From: Collinsella sp. An7
Lineage (GTDB): Bacteria; Actinomycetota; Coriobacteriia; Coriobacteriales; Coriobacteriaceae
Length of the DNA: 64,000 bases
Assembly: GCF_002159335.1 (NCBI RefSeq)
Contig: NZ_NFHP01000006.1
Span: 124,001 to 188,000 of the forward strand
Direction: 5' to 3'
This document shows positions 549 to 29,412 of this stretch, piece after piece (positions within the stretch are counted from its first letter, which is position 1; each line of letters starts with the position of its first letter). Under the pieces are notes generated by a model. That model had not been told where the DNA came from and searched no databases. It saw nothing but the letters and a program-made list of their open reading frames with translations. The translations under genes were made by a program, and so were the position numbers.

Positions 549-614
549 TCACATCCAGCGGAACACCGCGCGGAACAGCCACCTGATTGCCCTCATGAGA
601 GCCTCATCGCTCAC
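549..614 (-). CDS. 21-residue peptide coupled to upstream gene
   Basis: A GTG start at 612-614 overlaps the TGA stop of the preceding 166-residue gene (GTGTGA), with a G-rich Shine-Dalgarno-like stretch just upstream. The product is 21 residues, an acidic N-terminus followed by an amphipathic, Trp/Arg/Phe-rich stretch (RAIRWLFRAVFRWM). This composition differs sharply from the Arg-rich nonsense that other frames give here. It could be a small membrane-active or regulatory peptide of the element. It is in the same frame as the long run-on of the relaxase frame, so it could also be read as that protein's last residues. I do not recognise a family. Confidence 0.35.
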   Translation of the reverse strand: MSDEALMRAIRWLFRAVFRWM

Positions 615-2336
615 ACCCCCTCCCCGGCCGCCGAGACCGCCTCGGCGGCCTCCTCGCGCGCCGCGAGCGTGAACCCGTAGAGCGCGCACGCCTCCTCCGC
701 GCCGAGGTCGGGCCTCGCGCGCGACACCGCGCCGTCGAGCCACAGCGCCCGCCGCAGGAGGCAGGCCCCGGGGTCGCCCTCGTAGAGGCGCTGCTCGGCG
801 GCGGACAGCCGCCGGTCGTCGACGAGCGAGCCGCCGAGGCGCCAGTACCTGAGCCTCCCGTCCCTGCTCACGGACTCTATCGAGCGGACCTCCTCCGGCG
901 AGGCGAGCATGAGCCGCCAGCCGCGCCTGCGATCGGCGACGCCCCCCTCGCCCGGGCCGTAGCTGTTCGCCTCGACCCAGAGCCCGCCGCTCTCCATGCG
1001 GTCGAACCTCAGGCGGTACTCCGTGGCGAGCGGCTGGCCGCGGCCCTCGCAGAGCCGCTCGAGGTCGAAGACGTCCTCGCGCCCGTCGGCGTAGCTCACT
1101 TCGACGACCATCGGCTCCCCCTCTCGCCCCTCTCTCCTCTCTCCGCGCGCCCTCGTCGCGCCCGCCGCCGGGCGCTGCGCCGGCCCGCCCGCCGCGCCCC
1201 GCGGGGCCCCGGCGGGGTGCGGTCTGCCGCGGGGGCCGCGGCGCAGCCTCCGGGATGGCCACCCCCTTGCGCTCGAAGAGCTCGCGGGCATCCCTCAGGG
1301 CCGCCGCGCCCGCGGCGTCCCCGCGGGCCTCCAGCGCCTCGGCCCGCCGCTCCAGGTCTGCCGCGCCGCGGACGCGGTATCGCTCCAGCGCGCCCACGGC
1401 CCGGGCGAGCTCGTCGAGCTCGGCGAGGTCCTCGACCTCCAGCGCGGAGCGCGCGACGCGCTCCACCTCCTCGCGGGGCAGCGCGGGCGGGGCCGACCCC
1501 GCCCAGCGGGCCTCGATGGCGGCGCGGCCGTACTCGAGCCCGAGCCCCTCTCCGCGCACCCTGCGCGAGGGCGTCCCGGCGAGCGAGTACACCCAGTCGC
1601 GCCTGCCGCCGCGCGGCGAGGCGTCCGAGAGCTCGACCCCCATGGCGGCGAGGGCCGAGCGGAACTCCCCCTCGCGGCGCGACACGGCGCGCGCCGCCTC
1701 CACCCTGCCGCGGATGTCGGCCACCCAGGAGCGCCCGCCCCTGGCGGCTATCTCGCGCTCGGCGCGCCTGACGTGGACGCGCTGCGCCGTGCGCGGCCTC
1801 CCGCGCCCCGACCCCGCGCGTTCGTTGGAGTAGCGGTGGGCGAAGCCCCGCTCCGCCTCCATGCGCTGCAGCGAGCGGTTGAGCTCGAGGGGGTCGGGCA
1901 CCTGGAGGCGCCTGCCCGTCGAGAGAACGGTGTTGTTCACGACGACGTGCGCGTGGGGTATGCGCCCGGCTTTGTCGTCGTGGTAGACGACGGCCACCTC
2001 GCAGTCGGGGAACCAGCGCCGGGCCCACGCCGTCGCGAGCTCCCTGAGCTCGGCGAGCGACACGCCGTTGCGGGGGTCGGGCGAGATCACGTAGTGCTTC
2101 CAGGTCCTCGCCGCGCGCCCGCGCCAGGGCAGGTCGTTGCCCGCCGCCGCGCGCGTGGCGTCCATGGCGGCGGCCCAGTCGTAGGGGCCGTGCTCGGGCA
2201 GGCCGCCGGGGCCCTCGCCCGCGACGGGCGGGGCGAGGTTCAGGAAGTCCCGGGCGAGCGCGCGCCCGCCCCGCTCGAGGTAGCGCATGACGCCGCGCGC
2301 CGAGGTGTGGCCGGTCATCGCCTTGAGGTTCGTCAC
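549..2336 (-). CDS. relaxase/mobilization nuclease (true C-terminus uncertain)
   Basis: DNA-nicking transesterase that would cut at oriT and pilot the transferred strand. Start is GTG at 2334-2336 with a GGGGG site, 9 bp after the mobC stop. The N-terminal domain (to about residue 165) has MTGHTSARGVMRYL, the motif WKHYVISPDP, and the metal-binding block PHAHVVVNN, typical of the Relaxase/Mobilisation nuclease family (PF03432). A helical Glu/Arg/Ala region follows to about residue 375. From about residue 400 the frame turns into Arg/Pro/Gly-rich sequence that antisenses nothing sensible and overlaps a better coding frame (611-1111), so the native protein probably ends near 1096-1140. A one-base shift would reach a TGA at 1096-1098 that overlaps the next start. 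Domain certain, end uncertain. Confidence 0.75.
   Translation of the reverse strand: MTNLKAMTGHTSARGVMRYLERGGRALARDFLNLAPPVAGEGPGGLPEHGPYDWAAAMDATRAAAGNDLPWRGRAARTWKHYVISPDPRNGVSLAELRELATAWARRWFPDCEVAVVYHDDKAGRIPHAHVVVNNTVLSTGRRLQVPDPLELNRSLQRMEAERGFAHRYSNERAGSGRGRPRTAQRVHVRRAEREIAARGGRSWVADIRGRVEAARAVSRREGEFRSALAAMGVELSDASPRGGRRDWVYSLAGTPSRRVRGEGLGLEYGRAAIEARWAGSAPPALPREEVERVARSALEVEDLAELDELARAVGALERYRVRGAADLERRAEALEARGDAAGAAALRDARELFERKGVAIPEAAPRPPRQTAPRRGPAGRGGRAGAAPGGGRDEGARREERGARGGADGRRSELRRRARGRLRPRAALRGPRPAARHGVPPEVRPHGERRALGRGEQLRPGRGGRRRSQARLAAHARLAGGGPLDRVREQGREAQVLAPRRLARRRPAAVRRRAAPLRGRPRGLPPAAGAVARRRGVAREARPRRGGGVRALRVHARGARGGRRGGLGGRGGGVSDEALMRAIRWLFRAVFRWM
611..1111 (-). CDS. 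element-encoded protein of unknown function, 166 aa
   Basis: ATG at 1109-1111 is preceded by a strong GGGGGAG site. The protein starts MVVEVSYADGREDVF and contains EYRLRFDRMESGGLWVEANS, so it is an acidic soluble protein with no signal peptide or membrane segment. The N-terminal part resembles small DUF2442-like or accessory proteins of Gram-positive conjugative elements, but I cannot assign a family. It lies directly downstream of the relaxase and overlaps its open frame completely. Codon use (GC at third positions, sensible amino-acid mix) shows that this frame, not the relaxase frame, is coding between 611 and 1111. It is probably co-transcribed with mobC and the relaxase. Confidence 0.65.
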   Translation of the reverse strand: MVVEVSYADGREDVFDLERLCEGRGQPLATEYRLRFDRMESGGLWVEANSYGPGEGGVADRRRGWRLMLASPEEVRSIESVSRDGRLRYWRLGGSLVDDRRLSAAEQRLYEGDPGACLLRRALWLDGAVSRARPDLGAEEACALYGFTLAAREEAAEAVSAAGEGV

Positions 2337-2345
2337 GGCAGCCCC

Positions 2346-2768
2346 CTAGAGGAAGAGCGCGGCGCGCCCGGTGAGCGACGCCATCTCGCGGCAGAGGCCC
2401 CCGGCCGCCCCGTTCACCGCGGAGAGCTCCGCGCGGGCGTCGCGCAGGGCCTCGGCCATGTCGCCGTAGTCGCGCGAGCCGTGCCGCAGGTGGAACGCGA
2501 CGGAGTTGAGCGCGTGTACGCCCTGGTTGTAGTGGTAGCCCCAGCGCCTGAGCTCCCGCGCGATGCGCAGGCACGTCGCGGTGTCCAGCACGATCGGCCC
2601 GCCCTCCGAGGCCGCGCGGGCGGCGAGCCCTGGGTCCGCCGCGGCGAGGCGCACCATGAGGCGGACGAGATCCGACAGGCTCAGCCCCATCGCCCCGGCG
2701 ACCTCCTGCGCGCGCTCCTTGTCCTCCCTCGCGAGCCTGACGTACAGGCGCTCGGGGTACCTCTCCAT
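2346..2768 (-). CDS. MobC-like relaxosome accessory protein
   Basis: 140 residues from ATG at 2766-2768, chosen because GGGAGGGAG lies just upstream; a longer frame to 2828 is only low-complexity Arg/Pro. It starts MERYPERLYVRLAREDKER, a ribbon-helix-helix-like N-terminus as in plasmid mobilization proteins that bind oriT, followed by LSLSDLVRLMVRL and the block ELRRWGYHYNQGVHALNSV, which matches the MobC family pattern (LxxxGxNxNQxxxxLN). It ends 9 bp before the relaxase start, so translation is probably coupled. Its expected role is to bind near oriT and assist relaxase nicking. The 2829-3104 region upstream holds the hairpins proposed as oriT. Confidence 0.75.
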   Translation of the reverse strand: MERYPERLYVRLAREDKERAQEVAGAMGLSLSDLVRLMVRLAAADPGLAARAASEGGPIVLDTATCLRIARELRRWGYHYNQGVHALNSVAFHLRHGSRDYGDMAEALRDARAELSAVNGAAGGLCREMASLTGRAALFL

Positions 2769-2859
2769 GGGCTCCCTCCCTCTCCGTCCCAGGGGCGCGG
2801 GGGCTCCCCCGCTGCGCGCCGCGAGCACGGCGGCGATCGCGAAGCCATCGCCGCCGCGC

Positions 2860-4991: not shown

Positions 4992-5147
4992 TTTTCCACT
5001 CTCCGCTTTTATCGGAGCCCGCTGGAGGTGGGATCCTTGCGACGTGCAGGTGGGCGCGGTAATGCGGTGGGTCGCTCCGGTGGAGAATCGCAACCGGTCG
5101 GGTTTATACTGATGAGGAGCTGCTTTTATATGCGAAAGGTGAGATTT

Positions 5148-5516
5148 ATGGAGAAGAAGACAGTATTCGTTGCGTTTGCAATCGAGGACGAGCGTCAACG
5201 CGATTTTCTGAAGGGTCAGTCGCTCAACACGAAGTCGCCCTTCGAGTACATCGATATGTCGGTCAAGGAGCCGTACGCAACCGCCTGGAAGGAGAAGGTC
5301 CGCACTCGCATTAAGCGCTCCGACGGCGTGATTGCGCTCGTAAGCAAGAACTCGTTGAGCTCAAGTGGGGAAAAGTGGGAAATCGGCTGCGCGCGCGAGG
5401 AGGGGAAGAAGGTGCTGGGAATCTGGGCGTATAGCGATGACCGAACTGATCTTCCCGGTGTACGCACGGTTTCATGGACCTGGAGCCATATCGAAGATTT
5501 CATCGACAGCCTGTAG
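5148..5516 (+). CDS. TIR-like (MTH538/ThsB type) domain protein, Thoeris-like
   Basis: 122 residues from ATG 5148-5150 (AAAGGTGAG upstream); an in-frame ATG at 5130 is a weaker alternative. The protein is one TIR-like domain: beta strand KKTVFVAFAIEDE, the SLNTKSPFEYIDMS segment, a strand DGVIALVSKNSL, and the helix GEKWEIGCAREEGKKVLGIW, where E78 is at the position of the catalytic glutamate of NAD-cleaving TIRs. ThsB proteins of this family sense phage and make cyclic ADP-ribose-type signals that activate a partner effector. The next gene, 10 bp downstream, is a caspase-like protease, the pairing of type IV Thoeris. Composition is much less GC-rich than the chromosome. Family assignment is strong; defence function is inference. 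Confidence 0.85.
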   Translation: MEKKTVFVAFAIEDERQRDFLKGQSLNTKSPFEYIDMSVKEPYATAWKEKVRTRIKRSDGVIALVSKNSLSSSGEKWEIGCAREEGKKVLGIWAYSDDRTDLPGVRTVSWTWSHIEDFIDSL

Positions 5517-5526
5517 GAGCTGGGCG

Positions 5527-6516
5527 ATGGACAGGATGGCCCTAGTAGTTGGAGTTAACTACTATTCTGACAAGCGCATACCAAATCTTTCGGGTTGTGT
5601 GAACGATGCCAAGGAGGTCGCGCGCCTCCTCAAGCACAACGGGGATTCCTCTCGGAGCAGAAACTTTGACTGCAAGGAGCTGTATGCAGCCGGCCCAGAC
5701 CATGCCGTGAATCGCGCCGCGATCAAAGATGAGGCGCGCAGGTTGTTTCAGTCAAAAGCCGAAATAGCGCTCTTCTACTTTTCTGGACACGGGTATATCG
5801 AGTCAACCGGCGGGTTTATCAATGGGTCTGATTCCACTCGGGGGGACGAGGGGCTCTCTCTGAGGGAACTCGTTGATCTGGCGAACGGCTCGAGCGCGCG
5901 CCACAGAATCGTTATCCTTGACAGCTGCTATTCAGGGGCGGCGGGATCGGTCGCGGGCATGGAGAACCATGCCGCAATCGCGGAGGGCGTCACCATACTC
6001 ACCGCCTCGCGAAGCGATCAGCCCTCGCTTGAGCGTAAGGGGCATGGCGTTTTTACAAGTCTCCTCATAAACGCCCTAGAGGGCGCTGCGGCGAACCTGA
6101 CGGGCAGCATCACGCCGGGCAGCGTCTATGCGCACATCGATCAATCGCTTGGCATGTGGGACCAAAGGCCCGTTTTCAAAACGAACACGGACAGCTTCGT
6201 GTCGCTGCGCGAAGTCGATCCCGCAATCTCGCTCGATGATTTGCGGGAGCTGAAAAAGCTCTTCCCAACAGAGGACTATGAATACAGGCTGGATCCGTCG
6301 TATGAACCAAGGGACGAGGGAAGAACAGACGCTATGCCTCCGGCAGAGCCCAGGAACAACCGGGTGTTCTCTCTGCTCCAGAAATACAACCGGCATGGTC
6401 TTCTGGTTCCAGTTGGCGCCGACCATATGTGGAACGCGGCGATGGAGAGCAAGTCCTGCCGGTTGACGCTCCTCGGCAAGCATTATCGAAGGCTTGCGGA
6501 CCAAGGCCTGCTTTGA
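5527..6516 (+). CDS. caspase-like (C14) protease effector, Thoeris type IV-like
   Basis: 329 residues from ATG 5527-5529, GGAG 7 bp upstream. The N-terminal p20-like domain opens MALVVGVNYYSDKRIPNLSG and carries the catalytic dyad: H88 in YFSGHGYIE and C134 in LDSCYSGA, each at the end of a hydrophobic strand as in caspases and metacaspases. A p10-like part with TILTASRSDQPSLE and GHGVFTSLLINALEG follows (to about residue 235). The last 60 residues (SLLQKYNRHGLLVPVGADHM, then SKSCRLTLLGKHYRRLADQG) form a separate C-terminal domain that I have seen in other bacterial caspase-family proteins. In type IV Thoeris the TIR product activates such a protease, which then kills the infected cell. Whether this copy works is untested. 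Confidence 0.88.
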   Translation: MDRMALVVGVNYYSDKRIPNLSGCVNDAKEVARLLKHNGDSSRSRNFDCKELYAAGPDHAVNRAAIKDEARRLFQSKAEIALFYFSGHGYIESTGGFINGSDSTRGDEGLSLRELVDLANGSSARHRIVILDSCYSGAAGSVAGMENHAAIAEGVTILTASRSDQPSLERKGHGVFTSLLINALEGAAANLTGSITPGSVYAHIDQSLGMWDQRPVFKTNTDSFVSLREVDPAISLDDLRELKKLFPTEDYEYRLDPSYEPRDEGRTDAMPPAEPRNNRVFSLLQKYNRHGLLVPVGADHMWNAAMESKSCRLTLLGKHYRRLADQGLL

Positions 6517-6587: not shown

Positions 6588-7544
6588 TCAGGCCGTTTGA
6601 TGCTCATCGAGGAGCTTTAGCTTCTCGATGAGCATCTTCGTAAGCTCCTCGTCTTGAATGAGATCTATACCGAAGCACTTCTTTCCCGCGTCCTTGAGGG
6701 ATGCGCCGATGTGATACGCGGTCGAACTGTCGAGGATAAGGAAGCGGTCGTGGAACGTTCTGGTGCGACGGACGGTGAGCTGCGGGTACTGTGCGTTGAA
6801 CACGTCGACGTCGCCTTGAGTGAGCCGGTTGCCGGAGGTGTAGACGGTCACCGCGACGCCCTCGCGCTTCTTTGCGAGGATGTTCAGGGTGTGGACGTCT
6901 GCGTAGCCGTCCACGAGGGCGATTTCGCGCTCGGCGCGGCCCACGAGATCTGTCAGCAGACTGAAGGCGTCGAACATCTGCCCGGCGAAGAAGATCCGCT
7001 GGGGTTTCTCGACCTCGCCTTCGAGCAGGCGGAACACCTGGTTGAAGCGCTCGTCGGTTGATTGCTGAAACGCCGCCTGACTCAACTCGACGCCGCGCAA
7101 CCGCTCAAACAGGGTGGCGTTCTCGGCGAGGAGGTGGCGCATGGCGACGAACGCCCTCATGATACTGATACTGGTCTGCACCGCCACTTCGCTGCGTAGC
7201 ACGCCGGACAGCATGGCTATGCCCTGCTCGGTATAGGCATAGGGGAGGTAACGCCGCCCGCCGCGGCCCTCCATTGTCTTTGAGGTTCCAATTTGGCACC
7301 TCAAAGACTCGTCCTCCTCCTTGGTCAGTTGAAAACGGAAGTCCTCGGGGAATCTGTCAGCGTTGCGCGCGGCGGCGCGGTTGAGATTCTTCGTCTCTAC
7401 CTCGTATAACCGAGCGAGATCGGTATCGAGCATGATCTGCTGCCCACGGACGGTATGGATTAGGGGCTCTATGTTTGCGGAATCGACCAGGGCTATCGGC
7501 GCGCTCGTTTCGACCGATTCGTTCTCGGCATCAAAATCGCTCAT
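6588..7544 (-). CDS. ORF6N DNA-binding protein with PLD-like C-terminal domain
   Basis: 318 residues from ATG 7542-7544 (GAGGA upstream); a TTG at 7559 is a weaker alternative. Residues about 20-110 form an ORF6N domain (RGQQIMLDTDLARLYEVETK, then RNADRFPEDFRFQLTKEE, and YAYTEQGIAMLSGVLRSEVA), a KilA-N-related domain of phage and mobile-element antirepressors. After a helical linker, residues about 185-310 carry a phospholipase D-like fold with FHDRFLILD (H-x-R-x4-D, one HKD-like half) and GASLKDAGKK. It converges on the caspase gene, 71 bp apart, and is also lower in GC than the chromosome. Its role in the element (regulation or nucleic-acid cleavage) is unknown. Confidence 0.8.
   Translation of the reverse strand: MSDFDAENESVETSAPIALVDSANIEPLIHTVRGQQIMLDTDLARLYEVETKNLNRAAARNADRFPEDFRFQLTKEEDESLRCQIGTSKTMEGRGGRRYLPYAYTEQGIAMLSGVLRSEVAVQTSISIMRAFVAMRHLLAENATLFERLRGVELSQAAFQQSTDERFNQVFRLLEGEVEKPQRIFFAGQMFDAFSLLTDLVGRAEREIALVDGYADVHTLNILAKKREGVAVTVYTSGNRLTQGDVDVFNAQYPQLTVRRTRTFHDRFLILDSSTAYHIGASLKDAGKKCFGIDLIQDEELTKMLIEKLKLLDEHQTA
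6599..6636. terminator. long hairpin inside the 3' end of the ORF6N gene
   Basis: GATGCTCATCGAG (6599-6611) and CTCGATGAGCATC (6624-6636) are perfect 13-bp complements and the stem continues inward for four more pairs. It lies between the ends of two converging genes and encodes the last residues of the ORF6N protein. It may terminate the caspase transcript. Confidence 0.45.
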
Positions 7545-7680
7545 GGTTCCTCGATTCAAAGATGGGGACGCTCCTGCGTCGAAAGCATTTTATCATCCTG
7601 GGGCTTTGTCGCCTGCCGGTCCAGTGGCGATGACCTCTGACGTTAGGGAGGGAGTGTGCTTCGTCGTGGCGACGTCGGCC

Positions 7681-9054
7681 CTAAGCTTCCCTCGCCATGA
7701 CGGTGATCCGGCTCCCGTCGATGACGATGGGCGCGCCCGCCCCGCGCTGGATCTCCAGGAGATCGGCGGCCGAGGACACCGTGATCCGCCACTCTTCGAC
7801 CCAGGCGGCGCGGCCGTCGCGCACGACCTCGCGCTCGACGAGCTTCGCGCCGGGACAGGGGCAGAGGTCCGGGTTCGGCCCGACGACGGTGAGCCTCACC
7901 GGCTCCGCGGGCGCTACGGCCGCGGTGGCCCGCTCCCCGGCCGGCTGATTGGCGCGCGCCTCCTCGCCCGGGGCCTCCTGCCCGCCGCCTCCGGTTCGCA
8001 GCAGCCTCCCCATGAGGTCGGCGGCCTCGCGGTCGTTCCCTCCCATCATGTGCGCGTACACGTCCATCGTCATGCTCGACACCTCGTGGCCGAGCCTCCC
8101 CTGCACGCTCTTCGGGTCGATGCCGTTGCCGATCAGGAAGGTGGCCTGCGTGTGCCTCAGCTCGTGGAAGTCGTAGCCGACGTAGCGCCTCCGCTTGCGG
8201 CCGCCCTCCTCGGCCTCCTCCATTCTGCCGAGGCCGTGCTCGATGAAGTAGCCCCTCTGCCACGTCGAGAAGTTGTCGGGGTCGTGGAAGTCGAAGTCGC
8301 TGTCCGAGCGCACCGGGGTGTCCGGGGTCTGGGCGAGGCCCTGAACCTGCATCCGCCTCGCCCGGACGGCCTTCCAGGTGCGCAGGTACCGGGCCGTCCC
8401 GTCGTCGATCGCGACCCAGCGCGACCGGCGGTTCTTGGTCTCGCGCAGCGTCTTGTCCTTGGTGTACTGGTACTTGATGAACACCCGCATGTTGTCGAAG
8501 TCCACGTAGCGCCACGTGAGGCCGAGCGCCTCGCCGCGCCTCACGCCGGTCGCGAGCGCGAGCCAGATGGCGACGCGCCTGCCGTCGAGCTCGTCGTCGT
8601 GGAGCGCCTGGCAGAGCGAGATCGCCTCCTCGAGCGTGAGCGGGGTCCTCTCGGCCGAGCGCGGGCGCGAGACTTCGACGTCGCGGCAGGGGTTGTGCTC
8701 GGTCAGGTGCTCCTTCACGGCGAGGTCCATCACCTGGCTCATGACGGCGTTGAGCTTGTGGACGCCGCTCTGCGACATGCCGTGCTCCTCGCGCAGGTCC
8801 GCGTAGACCATGTTGAGCAGCGACAGGGACAGGTCGCTCACGAGCACGCCCGCGAACCACCGCTCCACCTTCTTGAGCTCGCACTCGTCGGTCTTGTGCG
8901 TGAGCGGCGAGAGGTTCTTGAGGAGCTTGCGCTGCTCGTGCCACCTCCATCCGAGCTCGGGCACCGTCACCTTGTCGGGGTTGGCGAACCCGCTCTCCAG
9001 CTCGCGGCGGTACTCCTCGAGCGCCCGCCTCGCGTCCGACTTGGTGCCGTGCAC
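7681..9054 (-). CDS. tyrosine-type integrase, N-terminus cut off by an amber codon
   Basis: Tyrosine recombinase: core-binding domain (about residues 20-125) and catalytic domain with R in ATGVRRGEALGL, HELRHTQATFL (H-x-x-R) and the nucleophile Y in TMDVYAHM. The C-terminus carries an unusual extra tail of about 110 residues. The best start is ATG 9175-9177 (AAGGGG upstream), giving an arm-binding N-terminus (GKVYRIRHHLGKDPATGKY), but codon 3 of that frame is TAG (9169-9171). The next usable start is GTG 9052-9054, which drops about 41 residues of the arm-DNA-binding domain. It sits next to the tRNA-Met att site, as an integrase should. Family is certain; activity doubtful. Confidence 0.85.
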   Translation of the reverse strand: MHGTKSDARRALEEYRRELESGFANPDKVTVPELGWRWHEQRKLLKNLSPLTHKTDECELKKVERWFAGVLVSDLSLSLLNMVYADLREEHGMSQSGVHKLNAVMSQVMDLAVKEHLTEHNPCRDVEVSRPRSAERTPLTLEEAISLCQALHDDELDGRRVAIWLALATGVRRGEALGLTWRYVDFDNMRVFIKYQYTKDKTLRETKNRRSRWVAIDDGTARYLRTWKAVRARRMQVQGLAQTPDTPVRSDSDFDFHDPDNFSTWQRGYFIEHGLGRMEEAEEGGRKRRRYVGYDFHELRHTQATFLIGNGIDPKSVQGRLGHEVSSMTMDVYAHMMGGNDREAADLMGRLLRTGGGGQEAPGEEARANQPAGERATAAVAPAEPVRLTVVGPNPDLCPCPGAKLVEREVVRDGRAAWVEEWRITVSSAADLLEIQRGAGAPIVIDGSRITVMAREA

Positions 9055-9177
9055 CGTCCTCTTCGGGGAGCGGATGTACTTCCCTGTGGCGGGGTCCTTA
9101 CCCAGATGGTGCCTGATCCGGTAGACCTTGCCCCGCTCGATCTCCTCGATCTCGCCGCAGCCCGTGACCTACGGCAT

Positions 9178-9466
9178 GGCCGCCCCTTTCTCTCGCGTGT
9201 CCCGCGCGGCCCGTGGTGTGGAAGAGGGGCCGTGCGGCCTGGTGTCGAGGGGGCTGCTCGGAGCCCCCTTCTGGCGCGAATTGTATCAGGGGGGAATTTG
9301 TTAGACGGGGCGAACGGAAATGGGGGAAATCGGGGGGAATCGGCGGGGCTACGCGGTTTCGCGCGGTTGTGCGAGGTTTATCGAGATTGACAAAAAGCCG
9401 CAGGTCAGAGCCACAAAAGAAACACAAGCGTTATAATCGGGATAACATGCTTTACCCTCCGGGAAA
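9178..9466. other. integrase-to-att interval
   Basis: These 289 bases have no coding frame. They contain a hairpin GGGGGCT/AGCCCCC near 9248-9267, G-rich runs at 9286-9345, and a TATAAT box at 9432-9437 pointing toward the att site. Integrase arm-binding sites would be expected here but cannot be identified by eye. Confidence 0.35.
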
Positions 9467-9514
9467 GGGCTCATAACCCAGAGGTCGTAGGTTCAAATCC
9501 TGCCCCCGCGACCA
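9467..9514 (+). other. att site: 3' half of an initiator tRNA-Met gene
   Basis: GGGCTCATAACCC (9467-9479) is an anticodon stem-loop with anticodon CAT and the three G:C pairs typical of initiator tRNA. It is followed by a T-arm (GTAGG, TTCAAAT, CCTGC), an acceptor 3' strand CCCCGCG and ACCA ending at 9514. The 5' half (acceptor 5' strand CGCGGGG, D-arm) is absent upstream. This is the product of integration into a tRNA 3' end; the complete tRNA should be at the other end of the element. Confidence 0.85.
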
Positions 9515-9522
9515 AGAACTTG

Positions 9523-11450: not shown

Positions 11451-12932
11451 CTACAGGTCGGCGGCGGTCACGATCTCCTGCGGGATGAGCCGCGCCCCGT
11501 CGAGCACCGCCCGCAGGTAGGTCGCCTCCTTCTTTTTGAGGAGGGGTTCGAGCAGCTCAAAGCCCATGATGGGGACGTTGACCTGGTCGGTGCGGCGGTT
11601 CTCGAGCGGATCGGGGAAGCGCCTCATCGCGCGTTTGAGCATGAGTCGGTACGCCGGGGCAAACGGCTCGAGTGTGATGGGCGTCGCCCCGAGGCCGTCG
11701 TCCGCGTCCGCCTCGTCGTCTGATTCCGCCCGTGCCGCCATGCGCCCCGCACGGGCGCGAAGCGCCAGGTCGAGCTTGGCCATGAGCTCGAGCCCTGCGC
11801 GATCGAGGTCGCCCCAATAGTAGACGCGCGCGTCCTCAGCGCCGAGCGTCTCCACCAGGTCGACGAGCTTCTGCGCGTCACCCACCAGGTGCCCGTCGCC
11901 AAACACCACGCCGTGCACACGCTCGCCGAGCAGGCGTTTTTGCCCGGAGAGAAAGATGGCGTCGCGCATATTGGTAAACGGGTCGAGGTTCTCGGAGATC
12001 ACGAGCTTGAGGTGCCGGCGCCGCTTGGGTACGCAGGCGAGCATCTCCGACTTGGCGGCGTGGCGGTAGCGCAGCAAGTCGCCCACGCCCATGAGCCGCA
12101 GGAGCTTGCGCCCCTCCGACTCGATGGCGATAAACTTCTCGTCGCCAAAAATCTGGTAGGAGAGCTCGCGCATGGTGAGCGAGCCGTCGCCGATGGTGGG
12201 CCGGCGATCGAGCGCGTCGGAGAGCGCCTTGAGCTCGCGCTCGTAGGCGAGGTACGCGTCGGGCGCACTCAGCAGGTAGCCGTTGATCCACAGGCGCGGG
12301 TCGAGGTCGATGATCAGCCGGCGTATGGCGTTGAGCTCAGGTGTTTGCTTGCGCACGGTGTCGATGCGGGCGAGCTGGCGTGGCCCCTGCTTGGCAAGCG
12401 AGGTGCCGGGTCGGTTGCCGCGCTCGCCCCGCCGGCTGCCGCGCCGCGACGTGCCGGCCGCCGAGGAGGCGGGAGAGGCGGTGTTGCTGTTGCCGTCTGC
12501 GCCTGATGCGGGCGCGGCTTCGCGCCTAGCGGACCGGGTGGCGGTGTCGCTGGTAGTGGCGTCTTTGGGGGCGCCGGCTGCGTCGCTCGCCGTGCCCGCT
12601 GCGCCGTTACCCCCGGGGTTGCCGCCCACGGGCACCGCCGCGCTGCCCGCGCCGGTGCTCGCCTCGGCCTGCAGCCGGTAGACGCCCTCGCCCGCCCGCA
12701 CGAGGAGGCCCGTCTGCGTGAGCGTCTTGAGCGTGCCCTCGCCGGCGCCGTACTTCTTGAGTACCTCGCGCACCGACGAGGCCGAGAGCGGATTTTCGCG
12801 CAGCTGCAGGCGCACGAGGCCGCTCGCGATGCCGCTCGCCATGGAGCGGTGCTCGGGCGCGAGCGCGGACGCCAGCGACTTGGCGAGCCTGATGGCGGTT
12901 TCTTTTTCTGCTTCGGTCAGCTTTTGCGGCAT
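11451..12932 (-). CDS. JetD-like DUF2220 protein with Toprim domain, orphan
   Basis: 493 residues from ATG 12930-12932 (AAGGAG upstream). Residues about 8-95 are helical with a winged-helix look; residues about 100-185 are Ala/Gly/Thr/Arg-rich linker. The second half matches the DUF2220 family, with a Toprim-like nuclease core: Glu in LKLVISENLDPFTN and the acidic pair in VYYWGDLDRAGLEL. JetD of Wadjet (type I) cuts plasmid DNA after SMC-like JetABC loads, but no jetA, jetB or jetC gene lies on either side: the neighbours are pepC and a histidine phosphatase. So either an orphan nuclease or a housekeeping DUF2220 protein. Family fairly certain; function open. Confidence 0.75.
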   Translation of the reverse strand: MPQKLTEAEKETAIRLAKSLASALAPEHRSMASGIASGLVRLQLRENPLSASSVREVLKKYGAGEGTLKTLTQTGLLVRAGEGVYRLQAEASTGAGSAAVPVGGNPGGNGAAGTASDAAGAPKDATTSDTATRSARREAAPASGADGNSNTASPASSAAGTSRRGSRRGERGNRPGTSLAKQGPRQLARIDTVRKQTPELNAIRRLIIDLDPRLWINGYLLSAPDAYLAYERELKALSDALDRRPTIGDGSLTMRELSYQIFGDEKFIAIESEGRKLLRLMGVGDLLRYRHAAKSEMLACVPKRRRHLKLVISENLDPFTNMRDAIFLSGQKRLLGERVHGVVFGDGHLVGDAQKLVDLVETLGAEDARVYYWGDLDRAGLELMAKLDLALRARAGRMAARAESDDEADADDGLGATPITLEPFAPAYRLMLKRAMRRFPDPLENRRTDQVNVPIMGFELLEPLLKKKEATYLRAVLDGARLIPQEIVTAADL

Positions 12933-13023
12933 GGGGGCTCCTTGTCTCGTCTTGGTTAAGGATACCTCGCCCCCAAACCCCAGCGCCACCTGCCTACCCG
13001 CCCGCGCGCAGCGCCGTGTGCCG

Positions 13024-23829: not shown

Positions 23830-26800
23830 ATGTCGCTCAAGTACAATCTCGAGACCATCCCCGAGTCGGGCGTCAAGAAGATCTCGCAAAACAACGATCC
23901 TCTCGGCGACGTGCAGTTCGTCCTCACACCGACCAATGAGAGCTATCAGCCCCTTGCGGACGCCCAGACGATCAACGCGACGACCGACTGGGCGACGGGA
24001 GAGCTCGTCTTCTCCTACACGGATGAGGCCTCTGGTCAGGATCGCCCCTACACGCTGGAAGAGCTGGACAACATCAGCCGCTGGTGGATCCTGCAAGAGG
24101 ACGCGGACATCGTCCCGACGGGATACCGCAACGCCGGTACCGTCGAGATGCGCTTCTCACATGCGCAGAAGGGCGACCCCACCAAGGGGGCGGGCATGCT
24201 GCTCGCCAGCAACCAGTGGGTGACGGGCGCGTACTCCCAGGCGCGGGTGACCGTCACCGCGCCGGACACGCTTACCACCACCGATGGCGGAACCCATAAC
24301 GTTGACAATGGAACCGTCTTCGCCGTGGTGATGCAGAAGGGCGCTGACGGCAATTGGTACCCGGTCTCGGGCAATGCGTTCACGGGCTGGAGCGTTGCTA
24401 CGACCAACGACAACGCCGCGATCATCGCAGCCGCCAAGGCGAACCAGAACGCGTTCACCGTGGGCTCCGGCGGCGCGTATCAGGTCGAGATCGATAACCT
24501 GCTGGGCGACATCACGACGTACCAGTACGTCATCGATACGTACGGCCCGAACGATAACAACGACCCCGCCAAGTACTCGGTGAAGTACTACTGGACGAAC
24601 GCAGATTCGCTGGATGCGCTCACCGGCGCGAGCACGATCGACGAGCTCAATCCGAGCGGCACGGGAGCTGCGGGTACGAGCTTCGACCGCGTCTTCTCGG
24701 TGATGCTGAACATCCCCAACATCAAGAACGAGCTCTCGCTGGTCAAGACCGATGCCGACAATGACAATGCGCCAATTGAGGGCGCGACATTCGCGCTGTA
24801 TGAGTACAGTGACAACTTCAACGTTGATAACCCTGGCGACGCCCTTCAGACGCTCATGACGGACGGGAGCGGTGCCATCAACGTGACTTCGACGGACGAT
24901 GGGCTGCTGACCGCCGGTCACTATCTGCTTGTGGAGACTGGCGCTCCAGAGGGGTACGTCGTAGAGAAGACCCCGATCGAAATTGTCGTGGACGACGAGG
25001 GCGTGCACGTCAATGCCGGCACCGCCGACGACAACGTAACCGTGGAAACGGGCATCGGGCGCCTCGTATACAGCATGAAGGGCTTCGCTGCGGGCGATAA
25101 GGTCGACGCGACGCTGCACGATGTCCAGGCACAGCCCCAGACCACTGCGAGCTACCCCGCAAATGCCGTTTGGCAGAACATCGACGGCGCAGATTCCATC
25201 CACTATCACTACAACGACGAGGGCGATAACGAGCTCATCTATGTTGGCACGACGGACGGCGTCGACAGCTACACCGCTCAGGCAGGCTGGTCAAGCTTGG
25301 ACGTGACGCAGTGCTACGAGCACGATGTCATCACCAACATGGACAAGCAGGATCTGGGCGACACCAACCTCAGCGCGCTCTTCACCGGTAACGTGACCAT
25401 TCATGTGACGGGCAAGGTCATCCCCGAGGACACCACCCTCGACGGTGCCAAGAACCTCGTGGTGACCAAGAACCTCGTGGGCCGCGATTGGCAGGACGGC
25501 GACTCGTTCAACTTTACGCTGGCGGCCGACCCGGACGACACGACTACGCTGGACGCCGTTAAGGACGGCACCGTGGTGCTGCCCGAGAACGCCGACGACG
25601 GTACCGTTGTGGTGAGCAACAAGACCAACCCTAAGACCGCCGCCTTCGGTGACATCACCTTCAAGAGCGAGGGCACCTACAAGTTCATCATCACCGAGAA
25701 CGACAGCACGGTGGCTGGCGTGTCCAAGGATGCGTCTACGAAGCACGTGACCGTCTCGGTGACCGACGAGAACGGCACGCTCAGGGCGAGCGTGGTGACC
25801 GAGGAGTCCGACGAGCTCACCTTCACCAACACGGCCGACCTGACCGTTTCCGCCGCCGACGCGCTGCAGATCACCAAGAACCTGCGCGCGAGCGCCGACA
25901 CCGCCGGCCTGGTGAACGCCGAGAAGGGTGCCCACCAGTTCACTATCAAGGCCATCGACACCGAGGGCGACAACCAGCCCACCGCCGCCGACGCGGCCGC
26001 CAAGCTGGGCCTGACCGGCGACACGACCGAGCTCACGGCCGGGAGCGCCGCGCTCACGCAGGGCTCGGGCGACAACGCCTACGTGTGGTCGGGCAGCTCC
26101 AACCCGCTCACGAGCGACCTCACCTTTACGGCGGCCGATCGCGGCAAGACCTTCACCTATGAGGTCTCCGAGGTCGTGCCCACCGATGGCGCGGACGGCT
26201 ACGTGTACGACACCGCCACGCATACCGTCACCTACACCGTGAGCGATGACGCCACGGCCGCGCTCTCGGTCGAGATGTGCATCGATGGCGGCGACCCGGT
26301 TGCCGCAGGCGTTACGCCCACGGTCACCTTCGACAATTCCATCAAGGTCGCCACGATCGGCGGCGACGGCACGGACACCGCGCTCAAGGTTCAGAAGACC
26401 GTGAACGTGGCGACCGACAAGGACTTCTCGTTTGACCTCACGCTGGCGAGCGCCAAGGATGGCGAGAACAACGACATCACGGACGCCGTGTTCGAGACTG
26501 GCGACGATGACGCGCTGACCGCCTTCAACGGCATGACCGCCACGGTCGACGGCGCCTTCAACGCCGACAACGAGCTCACGCAGACCGCGAGCTTCGGCAA
26601 GATCACCTTCACTAAGCCGGGTACCTACACCTTCAACGTGAAGGAAGCGACGACCGGCACCGGTGACGGCTGGACCTACGACAGCAGCACGAAGACCATC
26701 ACGGTCAAGGTCGACAACGACATGAACGCGACGGTCGACCCCGTGGACGCCGCGGTTTCCTTCACGAACACCTACGGCGCCAGCGGCGACCTGCCGGTCG

Positions 26801-29412
26801 ACGGTTCGGGCACCATCAAGCTGACCAAGGCGCTCACCGGCCGCGACTGGATCGACGGCGACACGTTCACGTTCACGCTCACGGGCAAGAACGTGACCCC
26901 GGGCGCCGACGAGGCGGCGGGCTTCGAGCTCCCTGCGGCCACCGAGGCAACGGTTGGCTACGCTGACGCCGTTGCGGCCGCAGGCGAGGGCAACGCCACC
27001 GAGGGCGTCGCGGTGCCGTTCGGCTTCGACAACATCACCTTCACCCAGACGGGCACCTATGAGTTCACGGTGACCGAGGGCGCCATCGACGAGGAGCACG
27101 TGTCCAACACGAGCGGCACTTCGGTGACCTACCGCGTCGTGGTGGACGACACCACGCAGGACGGCAAGCTCGAGGTGGGCGAGCCCTCCGTGATCGGCCA
27201 GACCGGTTCCAGCGCGTTCGTGAACAACTACAACCCGGACGCCGCGCTCGCTGGCCTGACGGCGACTAAGACGCTCAATGGCAAGACCAAGGGTCTTGAG
27301 GCGGGATTGTTCACCTTCCAGGTCAAGGCGGTTTCTGCCCCCGCCGACGTGACGGCTCCCATGCCGAGCAACGCGCAGGACGAGGATGGCGACGGCACCT
27401 ACACCGTCACCAACGACGTGGACGGCGCCATCAACTTCGGCACCTTCCGCTTCACCAAGCCGGGTACTTATATCTACACCGTGAGTGAAGTTGCGGGCGA
27501 CCAGGCCGGTGTTAGGTATGACACCAATACGTTTACGGTCAAGTATGATGTGGCCGATCACCCCGAGACGGGTGAGCTGCTTGCCAACGCCACCTATTAC
27601 CGTGGCGGCAAGGCGGTGGCGGGGAATGCCATCGGCGCCGAGGACGTGGTGTTCGCTAACACGTACGACCCCGAGGACGTGACGGTCGACCCGACTCCTG
27701 ACGATGCGACGACGGGCTTCTCGGGCACCAAGACCGTGACGAACGAGCATGGCGACTATGGCACGCTTGAGGCCGGTGACTTCCAGTTCACGATGAAGAG
27801 CGTCGTTGCTCCCGCCGGCGTGACCGCGCCCGAGCCGAGCAACGGCTCCACGGTGGACGTGAAGGCTGACGGCAACTTCGACTTTGGCACGCTGACCTTC
27901 TCCGAGCCCGGCACGTACACCTATGAGGTGCGCGAGGTGACCGGCAACAAGGAGGGCGTCACCTACAGCAGCGAGGTCTACACGCTCTCCTACACGATTG
28001 AGGACCAGGACGGCAAGCTGACGGTGGCGGATTCGTCCATCACCAACGCCGACGGCAAGAAAGTTGACGGCACCGCTCTGAACTTTGAGAACATCTACAA
28101 CGACGGCCAGACCGAGTACACCATCGGCGGCACCAAGGTGCTGGAGACCAATGGCTACAAGGGCGCGTCGCTCACCCAGGGCGCCTACACCTTCGTGCTC
28201 GTGGACGAGAACGGCGACGAGGTCGGCCGCGTGACCAACGGTGCGGCCACGGGCAACACCGCGACGTTCCAGTTCGACCCGATCACCTACACCGAGGCCG
28301 GCATGCACACCTATAAGGTGTACGAGCTCGGTGCCGACGGCCAGCCGGGCACGGGCGGCACGGATGACGCACGCGTGACGCACTCCGACGCGGTCTACAC
28401 CGTGACGGTGACCGTGACGGAGTCCAACGACGGCCGCGGGCTCGCCGCCTCGGCCGACGTGCAGAACGCCGACATCACCTTCACCAACACCTACGAGCCC
28501 ACGCCCGTGGTGGTCGGCCCCAGCGGCTCCGCCAAGATTGAGGGCACCAAGGTGCTCAACGTGGCCGACGGCAGCAGCCGCACCATGAAGGCCGGCGAGT
28601 TCGAGTTCCTGCTGCTGAAGGATGACCAGGAGGTCAGCCGCACCACCAACGATGAGAACGGCAACTTCGTCTTCGACGACATCACCTTCGACAAGGCGGG
28701 CACGTATACCTACGCGGTGAGCGAGATCAACACCGGCCTGGGCGGCATCACCTACGACAGCACGGTCTACGCCGTGACGGTCAAGGTGACCGAGAACCCC
28801 GATACGCACGCGCTCGAGGCCACGGTGAGCTACACGGATCCGGCCGACATCTCCAAGCCGGCGGATGCCATGATGTTCACCAACACCTATAAGGCCACGG
28901 GCGCCACGATCGTGCTTGGCGCGAGCAAGGAGCTCAAGAACGGCACGCTCGCCGACGGGCAGTTCACCTTTGAGCTCACGGGCTCCGAGGGCGCGCCGAT
29001 GCCCAAAACCACCAAGGTCACCAACCTGGCTGACGGCTCGGTGAGCTTTGGCACCGTGACGATTGACCAGGTGGGCGAGTACGACTACACCATCACTGAG
29101 GTTAACGACGGCCAGGACGGCATCACCTACGACGAGGACGCCACGCGCACCATCCACGTGAGCGTGACCGACAGCGGTGAGGGCTACCTCACGGCATACG
29201 TGACCTTCGGCGCGGACGGGTCGCACTTTGTCAACGTGAACACCAAGGCCAACATCCCCGACACCGGGGAGGGCACCGGCGAGGGTACCGGTACCGGTAA
29301 CAACGACAACGGCGGTAACGGCGACAAGCTCGCCGCGACGGGGCTCGCCGCGCTCGTGGGCGTGGGCGCGGTGGCGGCCGGAACCGTCATCCAGCGCCGC
29401 AAGCGCCAGTAG
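23830..29412 (+). CDS. large sortase-anchored FctA-repeat adhesin, N-terminus missing
   Basis: 1860 codons from the first in-frame ATG. The frame also codes upstream for the end of a fibro-slime-like domain (GSYHTLNFFYLERGN), so the real N-terminus and signal peptide are gone. After a beta-rich region, residues about 302-400 are SpaA-like (ETGAPEGYVVEKTP). Nine FctA/Spy0128-type pilin domains follow, starting near residues 537, 676, 850, 993, 1142, 1296, 1429, 1567 and 1695. Each has a KTL/KxL first strand, an FGxITFxxxGTYxYxVxE block and a closing FTNTY-like strand with the Asn expected for Lys-Asn isopeptide bonds. A Gly/Thr/Asn-rich spacer, LAATG, a membrane helix and RRKRQ form a cell-wall sorting signal. 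Without a signal peptide it cannot be secreted as annotated. Confidence 0.85.
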   Translation: MSLKYNLETIPESGVKKISQNNDPLGDVQFVLTPTNESYQPLADAQTINATTDWATGELVFSYTDEASGQDRPYTLEELDNISRWWILQEDADIVPTGYRNAGTVEMRFSHAQKGDPTKGAGMLLASNQWVTGAYSQARVTVTAPDTLTTTDGGTHNVDNGTVFAVVMQKGADGNWYPVSGNAFTGWSVATTNDNAAIIAAAKANQNAFTVGSGGAYQVEIDNLLGDITTYQYVIDTYGPNDNNDPAKYSVKYYWTNADSLDALTGASTIDELNPSGTGAAGTSFDRVFSVMLNIPNIKNELSLVKTDADNDNAPIEGATFALYEYSDNFNVDNPGDALQTLMTDGSGAINVTSTDDGLLTAGHYLLVETGAPEGYVVEKTPIEIVVDDEGVHVNAGTADDNVTVETGIGRLVYSMKGFAAGDKVDATLHDVQAQPQTTASYPANAVWQNIDGADSIHYHYNDEGDNELIYVGTTDGVDSYTAQAGWSSLDVTQCYEHDVITNMDKQDLGDTNLSALFTGNVTIHVTGKVIPEDTTLDGAKNLVVTKNLVGRDWQDGDSFNFTLAADPDDTTTLDAVKDGTVVLPENADDGTVVVSNKTNPKTAAFGDITFKSEGTYKFIITENDSTVAGVSKDASTKHVTVSVTDENGTLRASVVTEESDELTFTNTADLTVSAADALQITKNLRASADTAGLVNAEKGAHQFTIKAIDTEGDNQPTAADAAAKLGLTGDTTELTAGSAALTQGSGDNAYVWSGSSNPLTSDLTFTAADRGKTFTYEVSEVVPTDGADGYVYDTATHTVTYTVSDDATAALSVEMCIDGGDPVAAGVTPTVTFDNSIKVATIGGDGTDTALKVQKTVNVATDKDFSFDLTLASAKDGENNDITDAVFETGDDDALTAFNGMTATVDGAFNADNELTQTASFGKITFTKPGTYTFNVKEATTGTGDGWTYDSSTKTITVKVDNDMNATVDPVDAAVSFTNTYGASGDLPVDGSGTIKLTKALTGRDWIDGDTFTFTLTGKNVTPGADEAAGFELPAATEATVGYADAVAAAGEGNATEGVAVPFGFDNITFTQTGTYEFTVTEGAIDEEHVSNTSGTSVTYRVVVDDTTQDGKLEVGEPSVIGQTGSSAFVNNYNPDAALAGLTATKTLNGKTKGLEAGLFTFQVKAVSAPADVTAPMPSNAQDEDGDGTYTVTNDVDGAINFGTFRFTKPGTYIYTVSEVAGDQAGVRYDTNTFTVKYDVADHPETGELLANATYYRGGKAVAGNAIGAEDVVFANTYDPEDVTVDPTPDDATTGFSGTKTVTNEHGDYGTLEAGDFQFTMKSVVAPAGVTAPEPSNGSTVDVKADGNFDFGTLTFSEPGTYTYEVREVTGNKEGVTYSSEVYTLSYTIEDQDGKLTVADSSITNADGKKVDGTALNFENIYNDGQTEYTIGGTKVLETNGYKGASLTQGAYTFVLVDENGDEVGRVTNGAATGNTATFQFDPITYTEAGMHTYKVYELGADGQPGTGGTDDARVTHSDAVYTVTVTVTESNDGRGLAASADVQNADITFTNTYEPTPVVVGPSGSAKIEGTKVLNVADGSSRTMKAGEFEFLLLKDDQEVSRTTNDENGNFVFDDITFDKAGTYTYAVSEINTGLGGITYDSTVYAVTVKVTENPDTHALEATVSYTDPADISKPADAMMFTNTYKATGATIVLGASKELKNGTLADGQFTFELTGSEGAPMPKTTKVTNLADGSVSFGTVTIDQVGEYDYTITEVNDGQDGITYDEDATRTIHVSVTDSGEGYLTAYVTFGADGSHFVNVNTKANIPDTGEGTGEGTGTGNNDNGGNGDKLAATGLAALVGVGAVAAGTVIQRRKRQ

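Follow-up and report, generated by a model that had tools for sequence, protein, structure and literature searches.

A TAG stop at codon 3 of a tyrosine integrase gene and the probable immobilisation of a tRNA-Met island in Collinsella sp. An7

A stop as the third codon of an otherwise long integrase frame has led us to wonder whether the gene is dead, whether it is translated from another start or whether the stop is read through. In the window, by which we mean the whole 64-kb stretch of DNA analysed (G000:C15:124001-188000), the minus strand reads ATG CCG TAG from 9177 to 9169, after which the codons GTC ACG GGC TGC (VTGCGEIEE...) begin a frame that reads VTGCGEIEEIERGKVYRIRHHLG... and remains open for 495 codons, up to the stop codon at 7681-7683. 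The start region and the frame comprise the following features.

9178..9195, minus strand: ribosome-site region (agAAAGGGGcg) 5' of ATG 9177, duplex -7.3 kcal/mol
9172..9177, minus strand: ATG CCG, ancestral integrase start; ATG kept in L004, L005 and L031, ATC in L003 and L006
9169..9171, minus strand: TAG stop, codon 3 of the integrase frame, by direct reading; close copies have AAG
9052..9054, minus strand: GTG at codon 42, earliest ATG/GTG/TTG in frame beyond the stop, from frame reading and duplex scores
7681..9168, minus strand: tyrosine integrase open frame, 495 codons plus stop (Pfam PF00589, E 2.5e-20)

Homology to intact genes of relatives extends through the frame beyond the TAG and through the DNA flanking the TAG on either side, so the interrupted frame is more than a chance reading. 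Ribosome sites were scored as duplex energies (kcal/mol) against an anti-SD tail, with 653 GTGs sampled in the window as background. On this scale ATG 9177 has the best site of all start-like codons from codon 1 through the GTG at codon 42, and a duplex as good occurs at 6.7% of the sampled GTGs, while the score of GTG 9054 (-5.2) is equalled by 28.8% of them. GTG 9054 lies 41 codons beyond ATG 9177, which makes it residue 39 when the first codon after the TAG is counted as 1; between the TAG and this GTG the start-like codons are limited to ATC and CTG, and an SD-like AGAGG stands 5' of the GTG, yet spaced very near. The preliminary description is therefore borne out where it placed a TAG at codon 3, a good ribosome site at ATG 9175-9177 and a sole standard restart at GTG 9054 with the loss of about 41 residues. 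Frameshifted entry from ORF 9427-9098, which overlaps upstream, was ruled out, since that upstream reading is not the same in relatives.

To read the codon in relatives, the integrase was searched across genome contigs from 84,980 species (four matching loci), in 65 family genomes (24 with a match at E 1e-20) and in 395 order genomes (29 with a match at E 1e-80). The 5' ends were read at 20 loci from the order search (two of them coincide with L004 and L005) and additionally at L003, L006 and L031; of the matches that the order search listed, eight, L031 among them, had no locus read there. TAG at codon 3 occurs in 0 of these 23 relatives, and all 20 order-genome loci start upstream of the VTGCGEIEE motif with no intervening stop (19 with ATG, one with TTG); relatives whose accepted start lies beyond the TAG, a possibility raised at the outset, were sought among them and none was found. 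Apparent internal stops in G028, G030, G045 and G062 proved to be the natural C-terminal end and not the start. The integrases of Olsenella profusa An794 (L004) and Thermophilibacter provencensis (L005) are 80-81% identical to that of the window, carry a tRNA-Met 3' end of the same kind upstream and share the spacing of the candidate arm sites described below, but unlike it they have an intact ATG-CCG-AAG start and a complete frame. L031 also starts with ATG CCG AAG and is frameshifted further on, whereas L003 and L006 read ATC CCA AAG, with an altered start codon and with the att end upstream replaced by other DNA. With AAG (Lys) in the place of the TAG in the close copies L003, L004, L005, L006 and L031, the ancestral codon 3 was most likely AAG, as judged by comparing these sequences, and since AAG also stands in those close copies whose start is intact, a single base change is the simplest origin of the TAG. 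The remark that TAG is one base away from Tyr is literally true, but Tyr does not hold as the original codon, as the close relatives have Lys. Viral contigs contained no relative and no exact match to the 5' end, and the relatives in phages and plasmids were all below 60% identity.

The integrase stands at the right end of an island whose features within the window are these.

9467..9521, plus strand: right attachment-site repeat (55 bp), an exact copy of the 3' portion of the left tRNA-Met with its flank
549..2336, minus strand: relaxase, MobA/VirD2-like (Pfam PF03432, E 2.5e-9, 37.9 bits, above cut-off)
2346..2828, minus strand: MobC-like partner gene upstream of the relaxase, from its place beside the relaxase, kept in homologues; weak RelB-like match

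The 55-bp repeat is found exactly at 9467-9521 and at G000:C15:106498-106552, the latter outside the window, where it comprises the 3' portion of an intact tRNA-Met with its flank; a tRNA gene was searched for at the right copy and not found. About 27.0 kb lie between the repeats, and the integrase ATG is about 290 bp inside the right one. With att repeats at a tRNA gene, an integrase and a cargo that comprises a relaxase, an ORF6N gene, a TIR-like/caspase pair, abiE genes and others, the island is probably an integrative mobilisable element. MobC-like is our own label for 2346..2828, given by position. The relaxase frame extends beyond the ends of its homologues, over the whole of the next gene (611-1291, minus strand) in another frame, which is no proof of damage, and a second relaxase homologue is located at G000:C1:229791-231515. 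The cargo also includes a TIR-like protein (5133-5516, plus strand; PADLOC ThsB, E 3.1e-7) and, directly 3' of its gene, a caspase-domain protein (about 5524-6516, plus strand; Pfam PF00656, E 5.6e-15), a pair that we take to be linked to caspase-type Thoeris and that possibly forms a TIR-caspase (Thoeris-like) defence pair. Downstream of the integrase gene, the ORF6N-domain gene (6588-7559, minus strand) matches the PADLOC candidate defence family PDC-S05 (E 7.8e-122), and the same ORF6N protein start is also found 3' of the integrase in G005 and G016. Just outside the island, the protein at 11451-12989 (minus strand) has a JetD-like C-terminal half (PADLOC JetD3, E 7.8e-34), and further on a repetitive protein of 1860 aa (23830-29412, plus strand), with an anchor-like C-terminal tail seen by eye in the translation, is probably a surface protein.

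It seems to us very probable that the integrase of this island, of about 27 kb, suffered a recent, private nonsense mutation, by which the arm-binding integrase would be inactivated and the island probably fixed; the gene carries a disruptive change that its intact homologues do not have, as a pseudogene does. In the course of events that we propose, a single base change would have turned AAG into TAG at codon 3, ribosomes starting at ATG 9177 would release the dipeptide Met-Pro, and any product begun at GTG 9054 would comprise the core-binding and catalytic domains minus the beta-sheet that binds arm sites. With that sheet missing, the island could no longer integrate or excise in a regulated way and would stay fixed unless another recombinase helped. 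Among the outcomes first considered for this locus, immobilisation of the element appears the likeliest, given an arm domain cut off by the TAG and a restart at GTG 9054 only.

The arm-binding domain and the catalytic tyrosine are located as follows.

8983..9168, minus strand: arm-binding domain (AlphaFold2 mean pLDDT 83.6; PF14657 Arm-DNA-bind_4, 17.6 bits, cut-off 22.3)
8056..8058, minus strand: TAC, catalytic tyrosine Y371, from an alignment including Tn1549 Y380 (in the portion of PMC5871717 used here)

The AlphaFold2 model of the first 65 residues after the TAG, residue 1 being the first codon after it, has strands at 5-11, 15-24, 31-33 and 37-40 and a helix at 43-62, that is, three strands and one helix if 31-40 is taken as a single broken strand. 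This is the layout given for the arm domain of the IntTn916 subgroup in the section of PMC8138268 cited here, which also terms the domain essential for mobility. The Pfam Arm-DNA-bind_4 score of the window (17.6 bits) is below the cut-off, and that of the relative L026 (38.7) is well above it. Foldseek with the 65-residue model gave no match at E 0.001 or better, a second structure comparison gave Z <5 only, all with unrelated proteins, and a PDB profile search using the N-terminal alignment returned nothing relevant. The identity of the predicted domain rests on its modelled topology, on Pfam matches (above the cut-off in L026 only) and on the literature. No standard start yields this domain, since the TAG intervenes and the next ATG/GTG/TTG is residue 39; with strands at 5-40, the model supports the earlier claim that the TAG cuts off an arm-binding N-terminus, and a product from GTG 9054 would keep the predicted helix and lose the beta-sheet. 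The catalytic residues R210, K245, H335, R338, H361 and Y371 are all intact in the window, the first five being kept in 18/18 aligned proteins and Y371 in 17/18. Two other residues depart from the alignment, Q269R at a position where all 17 other proteins have Gln, and C287R at a site conserved in relatives. The full-length AlphaFold model of the integrase is poor (mean pLDDT 41), and the beta-insertion of the catalytic domain is not readable from it.

Like the IntTn916-type recombinases (Tn916 and Tn1549 Int), the window integrase has the domain order arm-binding, core-binding, catalytic and a predicted three-stranded sheet with one helix at the N-terminus, and its catalytic region is alignable with that of Tn1549 Int. 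It differs from them in an arm domain that is not translated from its own start and in a long C-terminal extension (about residues 390-495), and it has one tyrosine where Tn1549 Int has a YY pair; according to the cited portion of PMC5871717, Y380 of Tn1549 Int is the tyrosine required for strand exchange.

Three candidate arm sites matching RATTYCCCC were found by motif search.

9333..9341, minus strand: candidate arm site 1
9323..9331, minus strand: candidate arm site 2
9290..9298, minus strand: candidate arm site 3

The window has no other copy of the motif; the three share the minus strand and cluster at 9290-9341, in the stretch that separates the right repeat from the integrase gene. The pattern was picked after the sequence had been viewed, and with 1.11 copies expected per window and at least three copies in 11 of 100 shuffles, the count by itself is weak. 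L005 has its copies at the same intervals of 10 and 33 bases, and of 23 loci that offered 250 or more bases of upstream sequence (L118 had just 80), nine have at least two copies within 400 bases upstream of the integrase gene, 22 copies in total, these loci being partly dependent (L106-L109 are near-identical, and L004 and L005 are close). Downstream of the gene the motif was found in none of 24 loci. Upstream, it was not found in L003 and L006, both of which have no att end, nor in ten more relatives (L112-L117, L119-L121 and L031). From this pattern of sequence we infer that the RATTYCCCC direct repeats upstream of the gene are putative arm sites.

One may ask whether the TAG is real. A base-call or assembly error, in which case the true codon would be a sense codon and the integrase intact, is the main rival to a nonsense mutation; a single substitution would suffice, and no damage is seen in the catalytic residues, the end repeats or the candidate arm sites, as would be expected if the element worked until recently or still works. 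Nevertheless, we regard such an error as unlikely, for the assembly, in 18 contigs, reaches 99.73% completeness, substitution errors are rare in assemblies, and a second in-frame stop together with decayed relatives favours real decay. That second stop is a TGA that interrupts abiEii, also carried by the window's island (L069 3743-3745); the part upstream of the TGA covers positions 3-47 of 309 of the AbiEii profile, and the part downstream aligns with that profile in two segments. The abiE pair is located near the left end of the island (L069 3181-4387, G000:C15 about 107181-108387), where the top match of abiEi begins only at profile position 63 of 202. Among the close copies, the L006 integrase (L006 6001-6784) is broken beyond about residue 216, that of G005 is frameshifted, that of G016 is a C-terminal fragment, and that of L003 (6001-7485) is in frame but has Y371F, at the position that aligns with Tn1549 Int Y380. 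Only L004 and L005 are complete by the usual rules out of seven near copies (the window, L003-L006, G005 and G016); L003 and L006 are close integrase copies in another genus. Both the abiEii TGA and the decayed close copies agree with an inactivated integrase.

The substitutions point the same way. Between the window and L003 there are 24.8 nonsynonymous and 17.2 synonymous changes (pN/pS 0.45) versus 4 and 14 between the intact L004 and L005 (pN/pS 0.09), a difference (Fisher p 0.011) that argues for relaxed constraint on the former pair. Their first 180 codons differ by two nonsynonymous and seven synonymous changes, and the whole gene departs from neutrality (p 0.017), from which it seems reasonable to argue that decay has barely begun and that the TAG is probably young.

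We consider it very unlikely that a downstream start, whether GTG 9054 or a weak ATC or CTG, yields an integrase that has no arm domain and is still active. In the cited portion of PMC5871717, Tn1549 Int without its arm domain (Int82N) retained strand cleavage and exchange in vitro, so that a truncated window product, with its intact catalytic residues, need not be dead, and the AGAGG before GTG 9054 could serve it, though very near. Against such a start, the 20 order-genome relatives all begin upstream of the motif, the score of GTG 9054 is commonplace among the sampled GTGs, the candidate arm sites are still conserved, and the arm domain is the part termed essential for mobility in the cited section of PMC8138268.

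Readthrough of the TAG, by a suppressor tRNA or by leaky termination after proline, would give a low level of full-length integrase. The N-terminal codons still look constrained, as counted above, and a proline codon immediately 5' of a stop can slow termination. We nonetheless find readthrough extremely unlikely. A search of G000 with RF00005 gave 48 tRNAs, and ARAGORN anticodons at all 48 places included no CUA (0/48), although a highly divergent suppressor could escape; the PylS model had no match over its cut-off, its sole match (28.6 bits versus a cut-off of 178) being probably an ordinary synthetase such as PheS. TAG is moreover the commonest stop among 29 long ORFs of the window, terminating 15 of them (a greedy choice of non-overlapping frames of 200 aa or more, not all of them genes), and the TAG at codon 3 is absent from every relative read. 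With no cognate tRNA found and no PylS above the cut-off, and with a stop that is unconserved in the 23 relatives, recoding was rejected, and the suppression suggested in the preliminary description finds no support. That the element keeps the TAG as a leaky gate, rare readthrough giving a little full-length integrase for controlled mobility and restart giving an arm-less recombinase, is barely credible, and if true, one gene would yield two integrase forms with different direction control.

The TAG thus looks like ordinary gene decay and no new decoding trick. A nonsense mutation that would fix a tRNA-borne island recalls the high-pathogenicity island of E. coli, which, in the portion of PMC8209727 cited here, was likewise fixed through loss of part of its mobility functions; in that case the right repeat was deleted, whereas the present island retains both repeats and is hit at the start of its integrase gene. 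The locus would illustrate a route to island fixation in which one early stop removes the arm domain while the catalytic residues, the att repeats and the candidate arm sites remain. As such it may offer a natural case in which to ask if the arm domain alone is required for excision and, for the subfamily of this integrase, the recurring RATTYCCCC repeats provide a testable arm-site motif.
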